21,471 nt of DNA. Source: a virus. Under the pieces are notes generated by a model, which saw nothing but the letters and a program-made list of their open reading frames with translations, ran no database searches and was not told where the DNA came from. The stretch is from positions 1-21,471 of the IMG/VR virus record IMGVR_UViG_3300048588_000882; one strand, written 5' to 3'. A program made the position numbers and the translations under genes. Positions 14,510 through 21,471 of the stretch are shown here, piece by piece. Each line of letters starts with the position of its first letter. Position 1 is the first letter of the stretch.

Positions 14510-14844
14510 ACACCCGTCTCGCGCCCACGCCCCGCCAGCTCGAGGTCGTCGACGCCGTGCGGCGCCACGGTTCACCGGCGGCGGCCGCGGGCCCGCTCGG
14601 CGTCAGTCGCCAGACCGTTGAGAACACCGTCGCCGCCTACCACCTACGCGTGTGCGACGCGCGCATCGACGAGCTGGAGCACGAGCTGGAGCGGCTGCGG
14701 CCCTTGGCCGACGTCTCCCGGGTCGCCGAGCGTCTGGAGAAGGCTGCCCGGGGCATCGAGCAGGGCTCGGTCTCGCATCGCCGGATCGCGGATGGCGGCA
14801 CCCGCGTGAAGGAGCAGCGGCGTCGCATGAGGGGCGACTCCTAG
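14506..14844 (+). CDS. Small helix-turn-helix protein with coiled coil
   Basis: 112 aa, ATG 14506 overlapping the ATPase stop. Residues ~8-46 form an HTH like those of sigma-70 region 4 or LuxR proteins (TPRQLEVVDAVRRHGS, then GVSRQTVENTVAAYHLRV). Residues ~52-72 (ARIDELEHELERLRPLADV) form a short coiled coil, followed by a basic tail. It is likely a dimeric DNA-binding regulator, or a terminase-like accessory that binds packaging sites. Its gene lies between the two 9-bp repeat arrays, so it is a good candidate to bind them; that link is inference. Confidence 0.8.
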   Translation: MNTRLAPTPRQLEVVDAVRRHGSPAAAAGPLGVSRQTVENTVAAYHLRVCDARIDELEHELERLRPLADVSRVAERLEKAARGIEQGSVSHRRIADGGTRVKEQRRRMRGDS

Positions 14845-14891
14845 CAGGAGGCGCTAGCGGTCGGGTCGGGTCGCCTCGATACCGTCGGGCC

Positions 14892-15440
14892 ATGCCCACA
14901 CACCCGTGCCCCGGCTGTCTCCGGATCACCTCCCGCGAGGGACGCTGCCTGGACTGCGGGGGAGGGACCACGACCCAGCGCGGATACGGTGCGGCGTGGC
15001 GTCTCCGGCGGGCACGCCAGCTCCTGCTCCATCCGCGTTGCCAGTGGATCGTGCGACTGCCGTCCTTCACGTGCCGGCTGCGCGCCACCGACGTCGATCA
15101 CATCGTGCCGAAGGTCCGCGGCGGCACGGACGACCCCTCGAACCTGCAGTCGCTCTGCGCAGCACATCATCGGGCCAAGACCGCGACGCAGGACCGCCGG
15201 TGGGGGACCGAGGCATCTGGTCCCCGAGCGGAACAAGAGGGCGTACGACCGTCACGACCGTCACTACCGTCATCGGCAGCGTGGTCGGACGCCCACTCTG
15301 GTGACGGTCGTGACGCAAATGACGGTCGCGTACCCGCCCAGTCCTCACCACCCGACCGGTGGGGTACCCATGTTGACCGGCCCAGGCCCCGCCATGACGC
15401 CGCGGGTAGCGTGTACGCGCGGCCGGGTTTCGCGTTTTTT
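14892..15440 (+). CDS. HNH endonuclease with N-terminal zinc ribbon (3' end unresolved)
   Basis: Start ATG 14892. N-terminal zinc ribbon CPGC...CLDC, then basic helices (RGYGAAWRLRRARQLLL), and the HNH core: FTCRLRATDVDHIVP (Asp69-His70), NLQSLCAAHH (Asn84, His92-His93). Packaging-associated HNH nucleases beside terminase genes in HK97-type phages have this form and help genome cleavage. No in-frame stop appears until 16739, a frame that runs antisense through three better genes, so the coordinate given is only where a transcription terminator lies. After about 15240 the sequence enters repeat array 2; the expected stop may have been lost there by insertion, frameshift or sequencing error. 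Core assignment is firm, the end is not. Confidence 0.75.
15247..15327 (+). repeat. Dyad array 2 of 9-bp repeats (RTGACGNNN)
   Basis: Three 9-mers on the minus strand (15247-15273) face three on the plus strand (15301-15327), with a 27-base centre, the same spacing as array 1. The rightward arm matches array 1 in unit order, including the variant unit GTGACGCAA in second place. The array follows directly on the HNH core and would add a disordered Asp/Gly/Arg tail (GDGRDANDGR) if translated. It lies about 965 bp from array 1. It is likely a duplicated binding-site cluster. Confidence 0.65.
15415..15440 (+). terminator. Intrinsic-type terminator at the end of the rightward early operon
   Basis: Stem ACGCG/CGCGT (15415-15419 and 15431-15435), with a GC-rich loop, runs into six T residues (15435-15440). 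It lies between the HNH region and the convergent minus-strand gene that ends at 15456, where a terminator for the rightward transcript is expected. The stem is short, so efficiency is uncertain. Confidence 0.5.
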
Positions 15441-15455
15441 CCCGGTCCCGATGGC

Positions 15456-15701
15456 CTACTCGGGCCAGCGTCCGTCCCGAAGCTCCCGCAGGCAGTAGGC
15501 CATCCCGCGGACGCACTCGACCTCGGTGCGGCCGACCGCGATCCACTCGCGGCTCCGCTTGCCGACCTTGGGTCGCTCGCGGGGGTCGAACGCGTACTGC
15601 TCCCACTCCCCGCGCTCGTCGTGGAGGTAGGGGCGGCCGACCTGCCATCCCATCGTGTTGGCGGCGTGGACCTCGTCCCAGGCGGCCTCGAGATCGCTCA
15701 T
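15456..15701 (-). CDS. Small hypothetical phage protein
   Basis: 81 aa, read leftward from ATG 15701, with no clear ribosome binding site. It is acidic and rich in Trp and Arg (WQVGRPYLHDERGEWEQYAFDP, then RSREWIAVGRTEVE). Composition and codon use look coding. I do not recognise a family. It lies at the end of a run of three minus-strand genes opposite to the replication and packaging genes, possibly one transcription unit, though a hairpin at 15809-15832 separates it from the gene upstream. Confidence 0.6.
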   Translation of the reverse strand: MSDLEAAWDEVHAANTMGWQVGRPYLHDERGEWEQYAFDPRERPKVGKRSREWIAVGRTEVECVRGMAYCLRELRDGRWPE

Positions 15702-15808
15702 GCGGACGATCGTAGCGAGGCCACGCGCGGTCCCGCCCGGGGCGCCACAGGGCGCCCAAGTGCCGCGGTGTCCCGCAGGTCGCGCACGGATGCCACCGGA
15801 CGGACGAA

Positions 15809-15832
15809 GGCCCCGGACTCGCGCCCGGGGCC
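15809..15832 (-). terminator. GC-rich hairpin after a minus-strand gene
   Basis: Perfect 8-bp stem GGCCCCGG/CCGGGGCC (15809-15816 and 15825-15832) with an 8-base loop. Read leftward it follows the 15855 stop and is followed by a short TTCGTC, so it suits a weak terminator for the minus-strand gene. Confidence 0.5.
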
Positions 15833-15854
15833 CGTCGTGCGGCGATCGGGTGGG

Positions 15855-16211
15855 TCAGGCGGCGGCGACCTCCTCGGGCTCCGCCTGGACCTTCGGCTGG
15901 CGGCCCTTCCGCGGCGCCGTCGCCCCGGGCTCGCCCTCGGTGATGGCATCCGTCTCCGCGATCAGCTCCGGCTCCGTGACCGGTTCGGTCGCGGCCTCCG
16001 CCGCCTTGCGGGAGACCGCCGCCTTCCGCAGCGCGTTGGTGTACTGGCGCCAGTGCGGCTTGCACATGCGGCCGAGCCCGTCCTTCTGGCTGGCCTGGAC
16101 CGGGAACTCGTCGACCGGCGCCTCGTGGGCCTCGATGCCGAACGTGGTGCTGCCGATGCAGCGGCGCATGCCGCTGGTGGTCTGGGTGGTGGCGTCCTTC
16201 TTGCTGGCCAT
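15855..16211 (-). CDS. Hypothetical phage protein with Cys pair and charged tail
   Basis: 118 aa, with AGGAG eight bases before ATG 16211. The conserved-looking part is residues ~15-65 (MRRCIGSTTFGIEAHEAPVDEF, then GRMCKPHWRQYTNALRK), with two cysteines and two histidines that could bind a metal. The C-terminal half is a disordered Glu/Ala/Pro and Lys-rich tail. No family is recognised. Its gene lies between other small minus-strand genes and next to the methyltransferase. The dual Cys/His arrangement hints at DNA or RNA binding, but I cannot support a function. Confidence 0.65.
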   Translation of the reverse strand: MASKKDATTQTTSGMRRCIGSTTFGIEAHEAPVDEFPVQASQKDGLGRMCKPHWRQYTNALRKAAVSRKAAEAATEPVTEPELIAETDAITEGEPGATAPRKGRQPKVQAEPEEVAAA

Positions 16212-16292
16212 CGTGGTGCTCCTGGTTGGTCCCCTGCCTCGTCAGCGCCGGGCGGGGTCTCCGGCGGACCGGGCGATCGCCCGGTTTCGGCG

Positions 16293-16649
16293 TCAGGCGT
16301 CGTGGTCCTCGAGGCGCTCCCCGCATCGGGCGCAGGGGCCCCAGGCGTTCTCGCCCGCGAACCCCTCGCACCCGGGGGCGTCGTCCAGGCCGAAGTCCTC
16401 GGGCGCGGCGTAGCCGCCCTCCATCGCGCTCATCAGCGCCGCGCGTCGCTCGGCCGGCGTCTCAGGGTCCTCCGCGACCGGGTCGCGAAGCGCGTCGAGC
16501 TCGATCTCGGCGTGCCGGATGCGCTCCCGGTCGCGGACCTTCATCGCCAGGGGCGATTCCGGCATCGCGGTGGCGGCCCATCGGATGGCGGCGTCGAGCT
16601 CCCGCTGGGCGTCCGCGATGAGGCGGTCGAGGCTTGCCTGATCGGTCAC
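16293..16649 (-). CDS. Hypothetical phage protein with C-terminal CxxC motif
   Basis: 118 aa, start GTG 16649, which has AAAGGAGA about seven bases upstream; longer starts upstream lack this. It is mostly helical and acidic (LDRLIADAQRELDAAIRWAA, then VRDRERIRHAEIELDALRD). Near the end is a Cys, then C-A-R-C-G (CEGFAGENAWGPCARCGERL), resembling a zinc knuckle. No family is recognised. It is divergent from the methyltransferase gene with a 94-bp gap between starts, where promoters for both are expected. Confidence 0.65.
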   Translation of the reverse strand: MTDQASLDRLIADAQRELDAAIRWAATAMPESPLAMKVRDRERIRHAEIELDALRDPVAEDPETPAERRAALMSAMEGGYAAPEDFGLDDAPGCEGFAGENAWGPCARCGERLEDHDA

Positions 16650-16743
16650 TGGGGTCTCCTTTCGGGTCGGGGATGGCGTCTGGACGCGTCCATGAGTCGC
16701 TCGGGACGCGCCGTGATGCAAGGCGTCGGAGCGCGATGACACC

Positions 16744-19026
16744 GTGACGACACCGTCCGTTCGGAACCGTTCGAATGCCCCGGCGCCCGCCCCCTGGCGG
16801 TCCCGGATCGTGGGCACGGGCGACGAGGCACCCGATCAGCTGCTCGCCAACCCCGCGAACTGGAGAACGCATCCGAAGGCGCAGCAGCAGGCGCTCGCGG
16901 GCGTGCTCGATCAGGTCGGCTGGGTGTCGGCGATCCTTGTGAACCGCCGGACCGGGCACCTGGTCGATGGCCACCTGCGCGTCGAGCTCGCCATCACCCG
17001 GGGGGAGGCGTCGGTCCCGGTGAGCTACGTGGACCTCGATGCCGATGAGGAGGCACTCGTCCTTGCGTCCCTCGATCCGCTCGCCGCGATGGCCGGCGTC
17101 GACGACGAGAAGCTCCGGGCGCTGCTCGCGGATGTCTCGGTCGACGACGAGGCGCTCGGCGCGATGCTCGCCCGCCTGTCAGCACCCGAGCCGAAGGCGG
17201 GGCTCACCGACCCGGACGAAATCCCGGCGCCCCCGGACGAGGCGATCACCAAGCCGGGGGACCTGTGGATCCTCGGCGAGCACCGGCTGCTGTGCGGAGA
17301 CTCAGGCAACCCCGCGGATCTCGATCGGCTGCTCGACGGCGCGACGGTCGACCTGCTCTCCACCGACCCGCCCTACAACGTGAAGGTCGAGCCGCGCTCC
17401 AACAACGCGATCGCGGCCGGCATGTCGGACCAGTGGGACGCCTCCTACCAGACCGCCCTCGAGGCGAGCCAGGCGAAGCGTCGCAACGCCCGGGGCCTCC
17501 ACGAGTTCGACCAGGCGCGGCAGTCAGGGCCGCGGGGTCACCACCAGTCCATGGACCTGGCGCGCCATCCCGAGAAGGCCCAGGCGACCCACCGCAAGAT
17601 GCGCGCCAAGGATCGGCCCCTTGTCGGCGACTTCATCACCGACGAGGACTTCGCGGCGCGTCTCGACGCCTGGTTCCGGAACGGCGCCCGGGTGCTCCGC
17701 CCCGGCGGCGCCTTCTACGTCTGGGGTGGCTACGCGAACATCGCGAACTACCCGCCCGCACTCCGTGCCGCCGGCCTCTACTTCAGCCAGGCGGTGATCT
17801 GGGTGAAGGAGCACGCGGTGCTCACCCGCAAGGACTTCATGGGCAACCACGAGTGGTGCCAGCCGGCGGGCACCCGGGTGCTCACGCCCGACGGCCGGGT
17901 CCCGATCGAGTCGCTCCGGGACGACGACCGGGTGGTCAGCCTGGACCTGCGCTCACCGGCCATCACGGGCCTCCGGGACGGGCTCGGCATCCGCACCACG
18001 AGCCGACCCTACGACGGCGACCTCTACGGCGTGGCGGTCGGGGGCGCCGAGACCTGGACGACCGATGGCCATCCCTGGACCGTGCGGTTCACCGCGGAGT
18101 CCGCGGGCATGTGGTGCGTCTACCTGATGCGCCGCGGACGCTGGTGGCGGGTCGGTCGGACGCGCCTCCAGACGACCTGGGGCTTCGGGCTCAAGGGCCG
18201 GATGCTCACCGAGGGTGGCGAGGAGGGCTGGATCCTGAGCCTCCATGGCTCGGAGACCGATGCCGGGGTCGCGGAGCAGATCGCCTCGGTGCGCTACGGC
18301 ATCCCGACCACGTTCTGGCGATCGCTGGCACGGGATGGCCGGAGCGAGGCGGCGATCGCGCGCATCTATGACGCGCTCGACCTCGACGGGCTCCAGGCCG
18401 CAGCGGAGCGGGCGCTCGCGGACCACGGTCGACGCCTGGCGTTCCCGTTCGTCCGGCTCGGCGCGACGCGCACCAAGATCGGGGCCCGCGTCCCGGTCCA
18501 GGTGCGGGCCTGCAACCTGCTCCCCGAGGCGATGACGGTGCCGGTGCCCGGCAGGGGCCACGCGTTCAGCTGGGAGCCCGTCCGGAACGTCGACCGCCAG
18601 GCCTTCGCGGGACCGGTCTATTCGATGGACGTGGACCGCCACCACCACTACGTCGCCGACGGCATCGTCACCCACAACTGCTTCTACGGCTGGAAGGAAG
18701 GCGCGGGGCACCGGTTCTTCGGGCCTCCGAACGCCACTGACGTCTGGTCGGTCAAGAAGGTCAACCCGCGGGCGATGGTCCACCTGACCGAGAAGCCCAC
18801 CGAGCTGACGCGCCTGACGATCGAGTACAGCTCCCTCCCCGGTGAGGTGGTGCTCGACCTGTTCGGTGGCTCCGGATCGGCGCTGATCGCCGCGGAACAG
18901 ACCGGCCGGCGTGCCCGCCTCATGGAGATCGACCCGCTCTACTGCGACGTCATCGTCCGGCGATTCGAGGAGTTCACGGGCATCAAGCCAGAGCGCATCC
19001 CGGCACCCACGGCGGAGGCCGCGTGA
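16744..19026 (+). CDS. ParB-like/DNA methyltransferase (N4/N6, beta-type) precursor with in-frame intein
   Basis: 760-aa precursor from GTG 16744; after splicing 486 aa. The N-terminus (residues ~20-120) is a ParB/Srx-like domain (LLANPANWRTHPKAQQQALA, then GHLVDGHLRVELA). The methyltransferase has motif IV STDPPYN (208-211) before motif I LDLFGGSGS (705-712), the order of beta-class N4-cytosine/N6-adenine enzymes, with VHLTEKPTELTRL just ahead of motif I. The joined exteins read NHEW-CFYGWKEGAGH, the form intein-free homologues show. It methylates DNA using S-adenosylmethionine, probably to protect phage DNA from restriction or to mark packaging. The TerS start overlaps its stop by one base (TGATG). 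Confidence 0.93.
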   Translation: MTTPSVRNRSNAPAPAPWRSRIVGTGDEAPDQLLANPANWRTHPKAQQQALAGVLDQVGWVSAILVNRRTGHLVDGHLRVELAITRGEASVPVSYVDLDADEEALVLASLDPLAAMAGVDDEKLRALLADVSVDDEALGAMLARLSAPEPKAGLTDPDEIPAPPDEAITKPGDLWILGEHRLLCGDSGNPADLDRLLDGATVDLLSTDPPYNVKVEPRSNNAIAAGMSDQWDASYQTALEASQAKRRNARGLHEFDQARQSGPRGHHQSMDLARHPEKAQATHRKMRAKDRPLVGDFITDEDFAARLDAWFRNGARVLRPGGAFYVWGGYANIANYPPALRAAGLYFSQAVIWVKEHAVLTRKDFMGNHEWCQPAGTRVLTPDGRVPIESLRDDDRVVSLDLRSPAITGLRDGLGIRTTSRPYDGDLYGVAVGGAETWTTDGHPWTVRFTAESAGMWCVYLMRRGRWWRVGRTRLQTTWGFGLKGRMLTEGGEEGWILSLHGSETDAGVAEQIASVRYGIPTTFWRSLARDGRSEAAIARIYDALDLDGLQAAAERALADHGRRLAFPFVRLGATRTKIGARVPVQVRACNLLPEAMTVPVPGRGHAFSWEPVRNVDRQAFAGPVYSMDVDRHHHYVADGIVTHNCFYGWKEGAGHRFFGPPNATDVWSVKKVNPRAMVHLTEKPTELTRLTIEYSSLPGEVVLDLFGGSGSALIAAEQTGRRARLMEIDPLYCDVIVRRFEEFTGIKPERIPAPTAEAA
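17857..18678 (+). other. Intein with unusual, GIY-YIG-like inserted domain
   Basis: 274 aa (precursor residues 372-645). Splice signals: Cys372 (CQPAGTRVLTPDGRVPIESL, block A), block B TDGH at 440-443, block F (GPVYSMDVDRHHHYVADG), and the terminal His644-Asn645 followed by Cys646 of the extein. These are all residues needed for protein splicing. Between blocks B and F lies a ~120-aa insert without LAGLIDADG or HNH motifs. It opens with WCVYLMRRGRWWRVGRTR (Tyr460, RVGRT at 469-473), followed 40 residues later by Glu511 in a helix, which parallels GIY, YIG and catalytic Glu of GIY-YIG nucleases; the second Tyr is replaced. Splicing is near certain, nuclease activity is not. Confidence 0.88.
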
Positions 19027-19520: not shown

Positions 19521-21068
19521 GTGGTCCCCGATGAGCTCACCGGCGGCCCCCGCTTCGCCGCCTTCTGCGAGCACTACGTCCGCCACACCAAGGGACGCTG
19601 GGCCCGCGAGCCCCTGCGCCTCGAACCATGGCAGCGCGAGTTCTGGTGGGAGGCGCTCGAGGTCGACCCCGTCACCGGCCTCCGGGTCTACCAGGAGGTC
19701 GGCCTCGGCCTGCCCCGCAAGAACGGCAAGTCCGTCCAGGCCAGTGCCGCCGGCCTGTACTTCCTGGTCGCTGACGGGGAGGCCGAGCCCGAGGTCTACG
19801 TCGCCGCTGCCGCCCGCAACCAGGCCGGCATCGTGCTCGGCCAGTCCCGGCGCATGGCCCAGCAGTCACCCCGACTCGCCCGTCACGTCACCGTCCGGAC
19901 GACGCTCATCGAGTGCCCGCGCAACGGCGGGGTCATGCGATCGCTGTCTGCCGACGCTGCGCTCCAGCACGGCCTCAACCCCTACGCGAACATCATCGAC
20001 GAGCTCCACGCCCACCGGACGGCGGATCTCTACACCGCGCTCACGACCGGCACCGGAGCACGGGAGCAGCCCTTCACCCTCTGGATCAGCACCGCGGGCG
20101 TCGATGGTCCGGGCATCCTGTCGGAGCTGCACGCCTCGATGTTCGACGGACCGGGCGAGCTCGAGGAGCGCGGCTCGCTCCTGGTCTACCGCGACCGGGC
20201 CAACGGCGTCCTCATCTGGTGGTACGGCGCGGCCCGGGACGCCGACATCGAGGACCCCGCGGTCTGGCTGGGCGCCAACCCCGCCTCCTGGCTCCGCGAT
20301 GGCAAGTACCTCGCCCAGGAGTACGCCCGCCTCAAGTCCCGCGGCGCCCTGCTCGAGTGGCGCCGGTACCACCTCAACCAGTTCGTCGGCACCGAGGAAG
20401 CCTGGCTCCCCGACGGAGCGTGGTCGGGCTGTCGAGTCGGCGACCCCGATCCCGGTGACCCGCTCCACGGCCTCGAAGCGACCCTCCCGGTCGGCGTGGG
20501 AATCGACAAGGGCCAGACGAGCGACCTGTCCGCGATCGTCGTCGCCCAGCGCCAGGGGGACCGCGTCGTGGTGAGGTCGCGCGTGTTCCCGCCCCACCCC
20601 GCCACCGGCCGCGTCAACACCGAGTCGATGCGCGTCTATCTGCGCGACCTGCGGGGTCGCTTCCCGGTGTCCCAGGCCCGGGACGAGAAGACCAACCGGG
20701 TGCTGCCCGGTCCTGCCTTCGCCTACGACCGCTGGGCGTTCTCCGAATCCGCCGAGACCCTCGAGCAGGAGGGGCTGGCGATGGTCGACTTCCCCCAGAA
20801 CGCGACCACGATGGGACCAGCCAGCACCCAGGCGTTCGAGCTGATCACCACCGGACGGCTCGCGCATGACGGCGACCCGGTGCTCGCGGAGCACGTCGCC
20901 AACACCACCGCGATCCTCACGGAACGCGGCATGAAGGTCACCAAGCCGAGGAAGGTGACGCCGAGGAAGAACGACGCCTGCGTGGCGATGGTCATGGCGG
21001 TCGCGATGGCGATGCAGGAGGCGCCGAAGCCGTTCGTGCGCCAACCCCGCGTCCCGGTGGGCTTCTGA
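19521..21068 (+). CDS. terL: Phage terminase large subunit
   Basis: 515 aa from GTG 19521, three bases after the small-subunit stop. The ATPase motor has Walker A GLPRKNGKS (Lys70) and Walker B NIIDELH (Asp160-Glu161). The C-terminal nuclease domain shows VGIDKGQTSDLSAIVVA, FAYDRWAF, and KNDACVAMVMAV, the acidic residues of RNase-H-like terminase nucleases. It cuts concatemers and pumps DNA into the prohead. Length is normal for the Terminase_1 family, and no frame break is seen. The portal start overlaps its stop (TGATG). Confidence 0.96.
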   Translation: MVPDELTGGPRFAAFCEHYVRHTKGRWAREPLRLEPWQREFWWEALEVDPVTGLRVYQEVGLGLPRKNGKSVQASAAGLYFLVADGEAEPEVYVAAAARNQAGIVLGQSRRMAQQSPRLARHVTVRTTLIECPRNGGVMRSLSADAALQHGLNPYANIIDELHAHRTADLYTALTTGTGAREQPFTLWISTAGVDGPGILSELHASMFDGPGELEERGSLLVYRDRANGVLIWWYGAARDADIEDPAVWLGANPASWLRDGKYLAQEYARLKSRGALLEWRRYHLNQFVGTEEAWLPDGAWSGCRVGDPDPGDPLHGLEATLPVGVGIDKGQTSDLSAIVVAQRQGDRVVVRSRVFPPHPATGRVNTESMRVYLRDLRGRFPVSQARDEKTNRVLPGPAFAYDRWAFSESAETLEQEGLAMVDFPQNATTMGPASTQAFELITTGRLAHDGDPVLAEHVANTTAILTERGMKVTKPRKVTPRKNDACVAMVMAVAMAMQEAPKPFVRQPRVPVGF

Positions 21069-21471
21069 TGCCGGACACGCTCGACCTCCGCACTGCTCCC
21101 GCCGGCTCTCCCGAGTGGTGGCTGGCCCGTCTCCTCGCGCGCCTCGAGGCGCGACGGCTCGACCTCGAGACGTTCGAGGCCTACTACGACGGGCACCAGC
21201 CGCTGGCGTTCGCGAGCCAGAAGTTCCGGGACGCCTTCGGCTCCCGCTTCCGGGAGTTCAGCTCCAACTTCATGAGCCTCGTCGTGGACGCGCCCGGTGA
21301 GCGGCTCGAGGTCCAGGGCTTCCGCTTCCGGGATGCCGAGGGAGATGCCGACATCTGGCGCCGCATCTGGCAGGAGAACGACCTCGACGCCGGCTCCCAG
21401 CTGGCGCACACGGAGGCGCTCATGAAGGGCGTCGCCTACGCGATCGTGGAGCCGTCCCCGGACGGGACGCC
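21068..21471 (+). CDS. Phage portal protein, 5' part (runs off the window)
   Basis: Starts at ATG 21068, overlapping the TerL stop by one base. The first 68 codons (PDTLDLRTAPAGSPEWWLARL, then FEAYYDGHQPLAFASQKFRDAF) are the N-terminal arm of SPP1 gp6-like portals. From codon 65 it reads the same protein as the window's left end: same amino acids, 12 synonymous changes in 211 bases. It is cut by the window end at about residue 134. It docks with terminase, whose gene precedes it. Confidence 0.9.
   Translation, partial: MPDTLDLRTAPAGSPEWWLARLLARLEARRLDLETFEAYYDGHQPLAFASQKFRDAFGSRFREFSSNFMSLVVDAPGERLEVQGFRFRDAEGDADIWRRIWQENDLDAGSQLAHTEALMKGVAYAIVEPSPDGT
21261..21471 (+). repeat. Terminal near-repeat of bases 1-211
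   Basis: The last 211 bases align without gaps to the first 211. Twelve differences lie at 21265, 21280, 21289, 21292, 21295, 21298, 21304, 21319, 21343, 21346, 21362 and 21364, all synonymous in the portal frame; the last 107 bases are identical. It suggests circularity or two related copies. Confidence 0.9.

Follow-up and report, generated by a model that had tools for sequence, protein, structure and literature searches.

What kind of domain is carried by the intein that interrupts a phage DNA methyltransferase gene, and could that domain drive the spread of the intein? The question is raised by a viral record of 21,471 bases (the window, meaning here the whole stretch of DNA analysed), which encodes a phage integrase, a primase, the small and large terminase subunits and a portal gene. 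The open reading frame 16744-19026 (plus strand) of this window specifies a 760-residue precursor, an N6/N4 DNA methyltransferase interrupted by an intein. Two regions of the precursor, both of them extein, belong to the methylase family PF01555 (E 2.8e-21, Pfam scan); phrog_498 matches the precursor with an E-value of 2.8e-94 (PHROGs scan), and ParB-like phrogs cover its residues 30-217.

As for the surroundings of the gene, the record has a portal match at either end (to phrog_104 in 1-1328 and to SPP1_portal in 21068-21469), so that the record, which comes with no completeness value, may correspond to the circular or permuted near-complete genome of a small temperate phage. An HNH-endonuclease-like stretch (CPGC...CLDC...DVDHIVPKVRGGTDDPSNLQSLCAAHH; approximately 14890-15210, plus strand) is found within the open reading frame 14652-16739, upstream of the methyltransferase and terminase genes, and precedes the intein by about 2.5 kb. 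Either a packaging-associated HNH or a nuclease acting in trans may be encoded there.

A class-1 intein in the methyltransferase gene

The stretch 17857-18678 is a class-1 intein within the methyltransferase gene. Its splicing parts and the flanking exteins are arranged as follows:

16744-17856, plus strand: N-extein, with the ParB-like N-terminal region and the first methyltransferase part (precursor residues 1-371; GTG start as called)
17857-18678, plus strand: intein of 274 residues, C1 to H273-N274, class 1 by its residues (precursor residues 372-645)
17857-18102, plus strand: N-terminal part of the Hint domain, intein residues 1-82, with block A (C1) and block B (Hint_2 match at residues 1-30; Hint fold in the AlphaFold2 model; Foldseek matches to solved inteins)
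18061-18072, plus strand: block B, TDGH, intein residues T69-H72 (T69 and H72 invariant in 45 relatives)
18502-18678, plus strand: C-terminal part of the Hint domain, intein residues 216-274, with blocks F and G and the HN end (TIGR01443 at 253-274; PF14890 at 236-274)
18679-19026, plus strand: C-extein of the methyltransferase, beginning with Cys +1 (CFYGWKEG...) and including the stop codon (PF01555 at precursor residues 663-738)

The original prediction had called an intein from C372, the TDGH block, the His-Asn end and the cysteine at +1, and all of these signals are confirmed in place. The first intein residue is a cysteine (C1 at position 17857, C372 of the precursor) that is invariant in 45 relatives, whereas the C-terminus reads ...VTHN (H273-N274) and is directly followed by Cys +1. 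The profile TIGR01443 (intein_Cterm) is matched above its cut-off (22.8 versus 15.6 bits). Hint_2 and Intein_splicing match this intein weakly, below cut-off, but the latter is matched in 44 of the 45 relatives, with a best E-value of 1e-12. Because 13 full-length relatives are available, all of 274 residues and 52-61% identical, the assignment as an intein stands far beyond chance. An AlphaFold2 model built with 45 aligned inteins (pLDDT 95.3, pTM 0.90) gives the outer parts a Hint fold, and Foldseek searches with the whole intein retrieve solved inteins at probability 1.0, the matches being dominated by Hint domains. Most likely, the element splices as class 1.

Alleles devoid of the intein define the insertion site exactly. 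When a joined consensus extein was used as query, 80 viral loci matched straight across HEW-CFYGW with 86-95% identity, and in 72 of them the uninterrupted site was also recognized by pattern. The intein-free methyltransferase homologues thus join precisely at HEW-C, as the intein call demanded, and in them the C-extein is continuous with the N-extein. One pair of occupied and empty alleles (L012 and L168, respectively) shares 97.5% DNA identity in an end-to-end alignment of 749 nt that spans the join. A scan by codon pattern for inteins at NHEW-C returned 20 stretches, of which 18 belonged to the same insert family as the window intein and two were chance matches. All 18 contigs keep the insert domain, and neither mini-inteins nor other nucleases were seen at NHEW-C among the 20 stretches. 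At one locus (L002:3047-3250) the C-extein of this methyltransferase apparently holds the beginning of a second intein (VHL-CLHPDALVLTESGYRPIRS), located within the HLTEKP motif.

The insert between blocks B and F

The insert comprises about 135 residues and is located between Hint blocks B and F. The elements relevant to its interpretation are:

18106-18321, plus strand: GIY-YIG-like core, intein residues 84-155 (AlphaFold2 strands 86-93 and 96-103, helix 111-119, strand 123-130, helix 133-147)
18121-18123, plus strand: Tyr89, equivalent of the GIY tyrosine (80/80 sequences)
18154-18156, plus strand: Gly100, equivalent of the YIG glycine, in WRVG (80/80 sequences)
18199-18201, plus strand: Arg115, candidate catalytic arginine (78/80 sequences)
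18274-18276, plus strand: Glu140 (precursor Glu511), candidate catalytic metal-binding glutamate (80/80 sequences)
18322-18501, plus strand: helical C-terminal part of the insert, intein residues 156-215 (AlphaFold2 helices 164-172 and 176-189), candidate DNA-contacting region

The absence of LAGLIDADG and HNH motifs from the insert, noticed in the original prediction, agrees with the database scans, since no signature of either type was matched in Pfam, PHROGs or NCBIfam. In fact, HMMER comparison of the intein and its insert with these three libraries named no nuclease family at all, and sequence profile searches of the PDB with the insert produced chance matches only.

The GIY-YIG superfamily is defined by the GIY and YIG motifs, a central arginine and a glutamate in the C-terminal part (PMC1564403). 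In the insert the two motifs occur in a relaxed form, VY(L/M) in 80/80 sequences and RVG with its glycine in 80/80, the first glycine of GIY and the tyrosine of YIG being replaced (by Arg in the latter case, W-R-V-G). The replacement of this second tyrosine, already pointed out in the original prediction, is in line with the T5orf172/MUG113 subfamily, the T5orf172 sequences gathered here having K-I-G or K-V-G at the YIG position. The spacing given for Glu511 is also correct, as this residue is intein E140, 40 residues past G100 of WRVG, and it aligns with the EA...E motif of the UvrC, UPF0213 and T5orf172 families. The Tyr, Gly, Arg and Glu are kept across inteins as divergent as 25-30% identity.

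Structure prediction gave an answer in two parts. In the AlphaFold2 model, residues 86-147 follow the order beta-beta-alpha-beta-alpha, as in GIY-YIG domains, and then come two helices; the insert modelled alone shows the same order (pLDDT 89.6). Foldseek searches of the PDB with the insert alone, however, retrieved no GIY-YIG structure (best probability 0.08, in a comparison run without a known GIY-YIG domain as positive control).

The insert core was also compared by profile-profile alignment (hhalign) with UvrC, UPF0213-like and T5orf172 sequences brought together in one alignment. The score was 23.5 (pairwise E 5.6e-4, HH probability 29.7%), and the four signature positions all fell into register. 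The maximum reached by 1,000 column-shuffled controls was 17.1 in a run of 200 and 17.7 in a run of 800; the real score lies 7 standard deviations above the shuffles, and real-protein decoys scored 12.4 at most. Against single families the HH probabilities were 1-4%, and shuffles scored as high as the insert in 5/200 cases for UvrC, 9/200 for UPF0213-like and 0/200 for T5orf172. The original idea of a GIY-YIG-like insert has fair but incomplete support: the conserved Y/G/R/E residues, the topology and a profile score that beats 1,000 shuffles speak for it, whereas the Foldseek search, an HH probability of 30% and weak single-family scores speak against it. Taken together, the fold is likely to be GIY-YIG, and the insert would accordingly be expected to have nuclease activity.

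Relatives, selection and mobility

About 80 distinct relatives of the insert were gathered, essentially all of them within inteins; they were collected with intein queries and are not a complete census. The phage collection contributed 28 records, and scans of viral and bacterial contigs yielded 62 and 22 loci, plus a few more. Both intein ends could be delimited by a strict pattern in 62 of the 78 distinct domain copies, the remaining ones being, by inspection, mostly in inteins or interrupted by a contig end. A search of about 690 bacterial genomes for free-standing relatives of the insert found none, only intein copies and chance matches.

Host genes, assigned from the flanking sequence and Pfam, fall into at least three families. 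In methyltransferases, which include copies from Pseudomonadota and Planctomycetota genomes and from Streptococcus phages (42% identity), the insertion position is always the same. UvrD-type helicases have several insertion points, among them those following ...DDDQ and ...TIH; the relatives in SPO1-like Bacillus phages (33-34% identity) are in UvrD-like helicases. One relative (L076) resides in a Mu-like portal protein gene. The suspicion that such inserts form a recurrent, uncharacterized class was borne out, and more broadly than guessed, as members occur in many phyla. The suggestion that they recur in actinophage inteins was not: the relatives in named phages belong to Streptococcus and Bacillus phages, and the published actinophage methylase inteins carry LAGLIDADG (PMC9957025).

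Among the helicase-borne relatives, some loci present more complex arrangements. One UvrD-type helicase (L072:1877-4585) harbours two inteins with the GIY-YIG-like insert in a single reading frame, after DMGQ and after TIH, and another frame (L077:1496-4819) has, besides one such intein, a second Intein_splicing match (residues 216-480). In a helicase-like gene of Rhizobacter sp. Root1221 (L100:3725-4795) the relative is larger (about 357 residues or more) and more divergent, and the longer region past its GIY-like core may reflect an insert that is nested or extended.

Estimates of pN/pS, pooled over 40 closely related pairs that are not independent of one another, were 0.13 for the GIY-like core, 0.20 and 0.17 for the two splicing parts and 0.27 for the helical tail. 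The core is thus no less strictly conserved than the splicing domain.

The intein carries the signs of a mobile element, namely site-specific and patchy occupation and repeated horizontal invasion. The methyltransferase site is occupied in sequences from Pseudomonadota, Planctomycetota and Streptococcus phages. A tree of 97 methyltransferases contained 35 occupied and 62 empty alleles, a ratio that is not a frequency because the empty alleles were chosen by similarity to one query. Intein presence changes at least 18 times on this tree, six of these changes being forced by well-supported branches. In one pair of occupied alleles (L014 and L029) the exteins are 96% identical and the inteins 57%, which points to separate invasions or to replacement at one site. 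The patchy distribution and the precise junctions show mobility, without proving that the insert domain is its driver.

Proposed homing pathway, alternatives and known systems

The element is probably a mobile, cis-splicing class-1 intein equipped with a divergent GIY-YIG homing endonuclease, nearest in motif to T5orf172/MUG113, and with a helical region that probably contacts DNA. This proposal starts from computational observations: the intein anatomy, the exact empty site, the conservation of residues, the selection on the domain and the patchy, repeated occupation. Splicing, DNA cleavage and homing themselves would take the following course. After translation of the precursor, the Hint domain would excise itself by means of C1, block B, H273-N274 and C+1, leaving an intact methyltransferase. 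The GIY-YIG domain of the free intein, through Y89, G100, R115, E140 and a metal ion, would then cut intein-free methyltransferase alleles near HEW-C, such alleles being presumably provided by a co-infecting or resident phage. Repair would copy the intein into the cut allele, and the occupied site would from then on be immune.

It is unlikely, although conceivable, that the insert has some other fold and serves as a homing or DNA-binding domain through which the intein is still mobile, its Y/G/R/E match having arisen by convergence or coincidence. The silent HMMER libraries, the Foldseek search of the insert alone that returned no GIY-YIG structure and the single-family hhalign probabilities of 1-4% would all fit such a domain. 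They are countered by a combined-profile score 7 standard deviations above the shuffles, with the four signature positions in register, and by the fact that exactly those residues are invariant across inteins only 25-30% identical. Lower still is the probability of a non-nuclease domain with a structural or regulatory role in splicing or its control, the intein being moved by a nuclease acting in trans (an HNH gene, for example) or by ordinary recombination. This would be compatible with a domain that is never missing from the inteins found at the methyltransferase site (18/18), with a core pN/pS below that of the splicing domain and with the HNH-like frame that precedes the intein by about 2.5 kb and could act in trans; for a giant virus, an HNH acting in trans close to an intein has been proposed (PMC5871332). 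Nevertheless, the residues conserved here are what one would expect in the active site of a nuclease, and the location between blocks B and F is the usual insertion point of intein endonucleases. Moreover, Hint domains in general splice without inserts.

An AP2-like DNA-binding domain, with a beta sheet, a helix and a W-I-L-G-x-F-x-T-x-x-E-A pattern, is highly improbable. The AP2 chains 7et4 and 7et5 are among the best, yet insignificant, Foldseek matches of the insert, and the helicase-intein stretch WILGVF.S..EA presumably resembles AP2. However, the Foldseek probability does not exceed 0.08, with an rmsd near 9 A. Moreover, strands 2 and 3 of AP2 are not known to be separated by a helix, nor do the invariant Tyr, Gly, Arg and Glu belong to the known signatures of AP2.

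Returning to the GIY-YIG reading, we hold with moderate confidence that the insert defines a widespread, previously undescribed class of inteins with an active, divergent GIY-YIG homing endonuclease in cis, a class that invades genes for methyltransferases, UvrD-type helicases and portal proteins in phages and in bacteria of several phyla. If this is true, GIY-YIG has to be added to the kinds of nuclease that inteins contain. An active domain would connect inteins with the GIY-YIG homing of introns and of free-standing genes in phages and would represent a compact intein endonuclease (about 135 residues), for which the near-identical occupied and empty alleles offer a test pair.

GIY-YIG proteins were stated in 2006 as not known in inteins (PMC1564403), and no description of a GIY-YIG nuclease embedded in an intein was found in the open-access literature searched. 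For this reason, and with the AceL NrdHF split intein (PMC7891396) as nearest precedent, the element is filed as an intein, a GIY-YIG-like endonuclease domain being the best but unproven reading of its insert. The AceL NrdHF intein is likewise associated with a GIY-YIG endonuclease, but there the nuclease is a separate gene lying between the halves of a split class 3 intein, in a fractured-gene arrangement, whereas the GIY-YIG-like domain described here is an in-frame part of a class-1 intein. With T5orf172/MUG113 (PF10544, PF13455) the insert has in common VY...[K/R][I/V]G, the replaced YIG tyrosine and the subsequent Arg and Glu; it differs in having no HMMER match to PF10544 or PF13455, in lacking the C-terminal EWF motif and in occurring here only inside inteins. 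Nuclease activity was shown for a protein of the T5orf172 type, Odn/Gp88 of phage ICP1 (PMC8263062).

The actinophage methylase inteins with LAGLIDADG (PMC9957025) share with the window intein the Hint domain, a nuclease-like domain inserted between blocks B and F, a phage methylase host and a patchy distribution, but they have 327 residues against 274 here, where the insert of about 135 residues lacks LAGLIDADG. These inteins and the element of actinophage ShiLan were considered as possibly the same thing and found to be different. The UvrD-helicase inteins of SPO1 and CampHawk (PMC3868849), already annotated as inteins, belong to the same family as the window intein, with 33-34% identity over the full length and the same insert with Y/G/R/E kept, although in another host gene and at another insertion site. 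Neither their annotations nor the CampHawk paper (PMC3868849) name a nuclease type. Since these Bacillus phages carry members of the class and can be cultured, the question lends itself to laboratory experiments.
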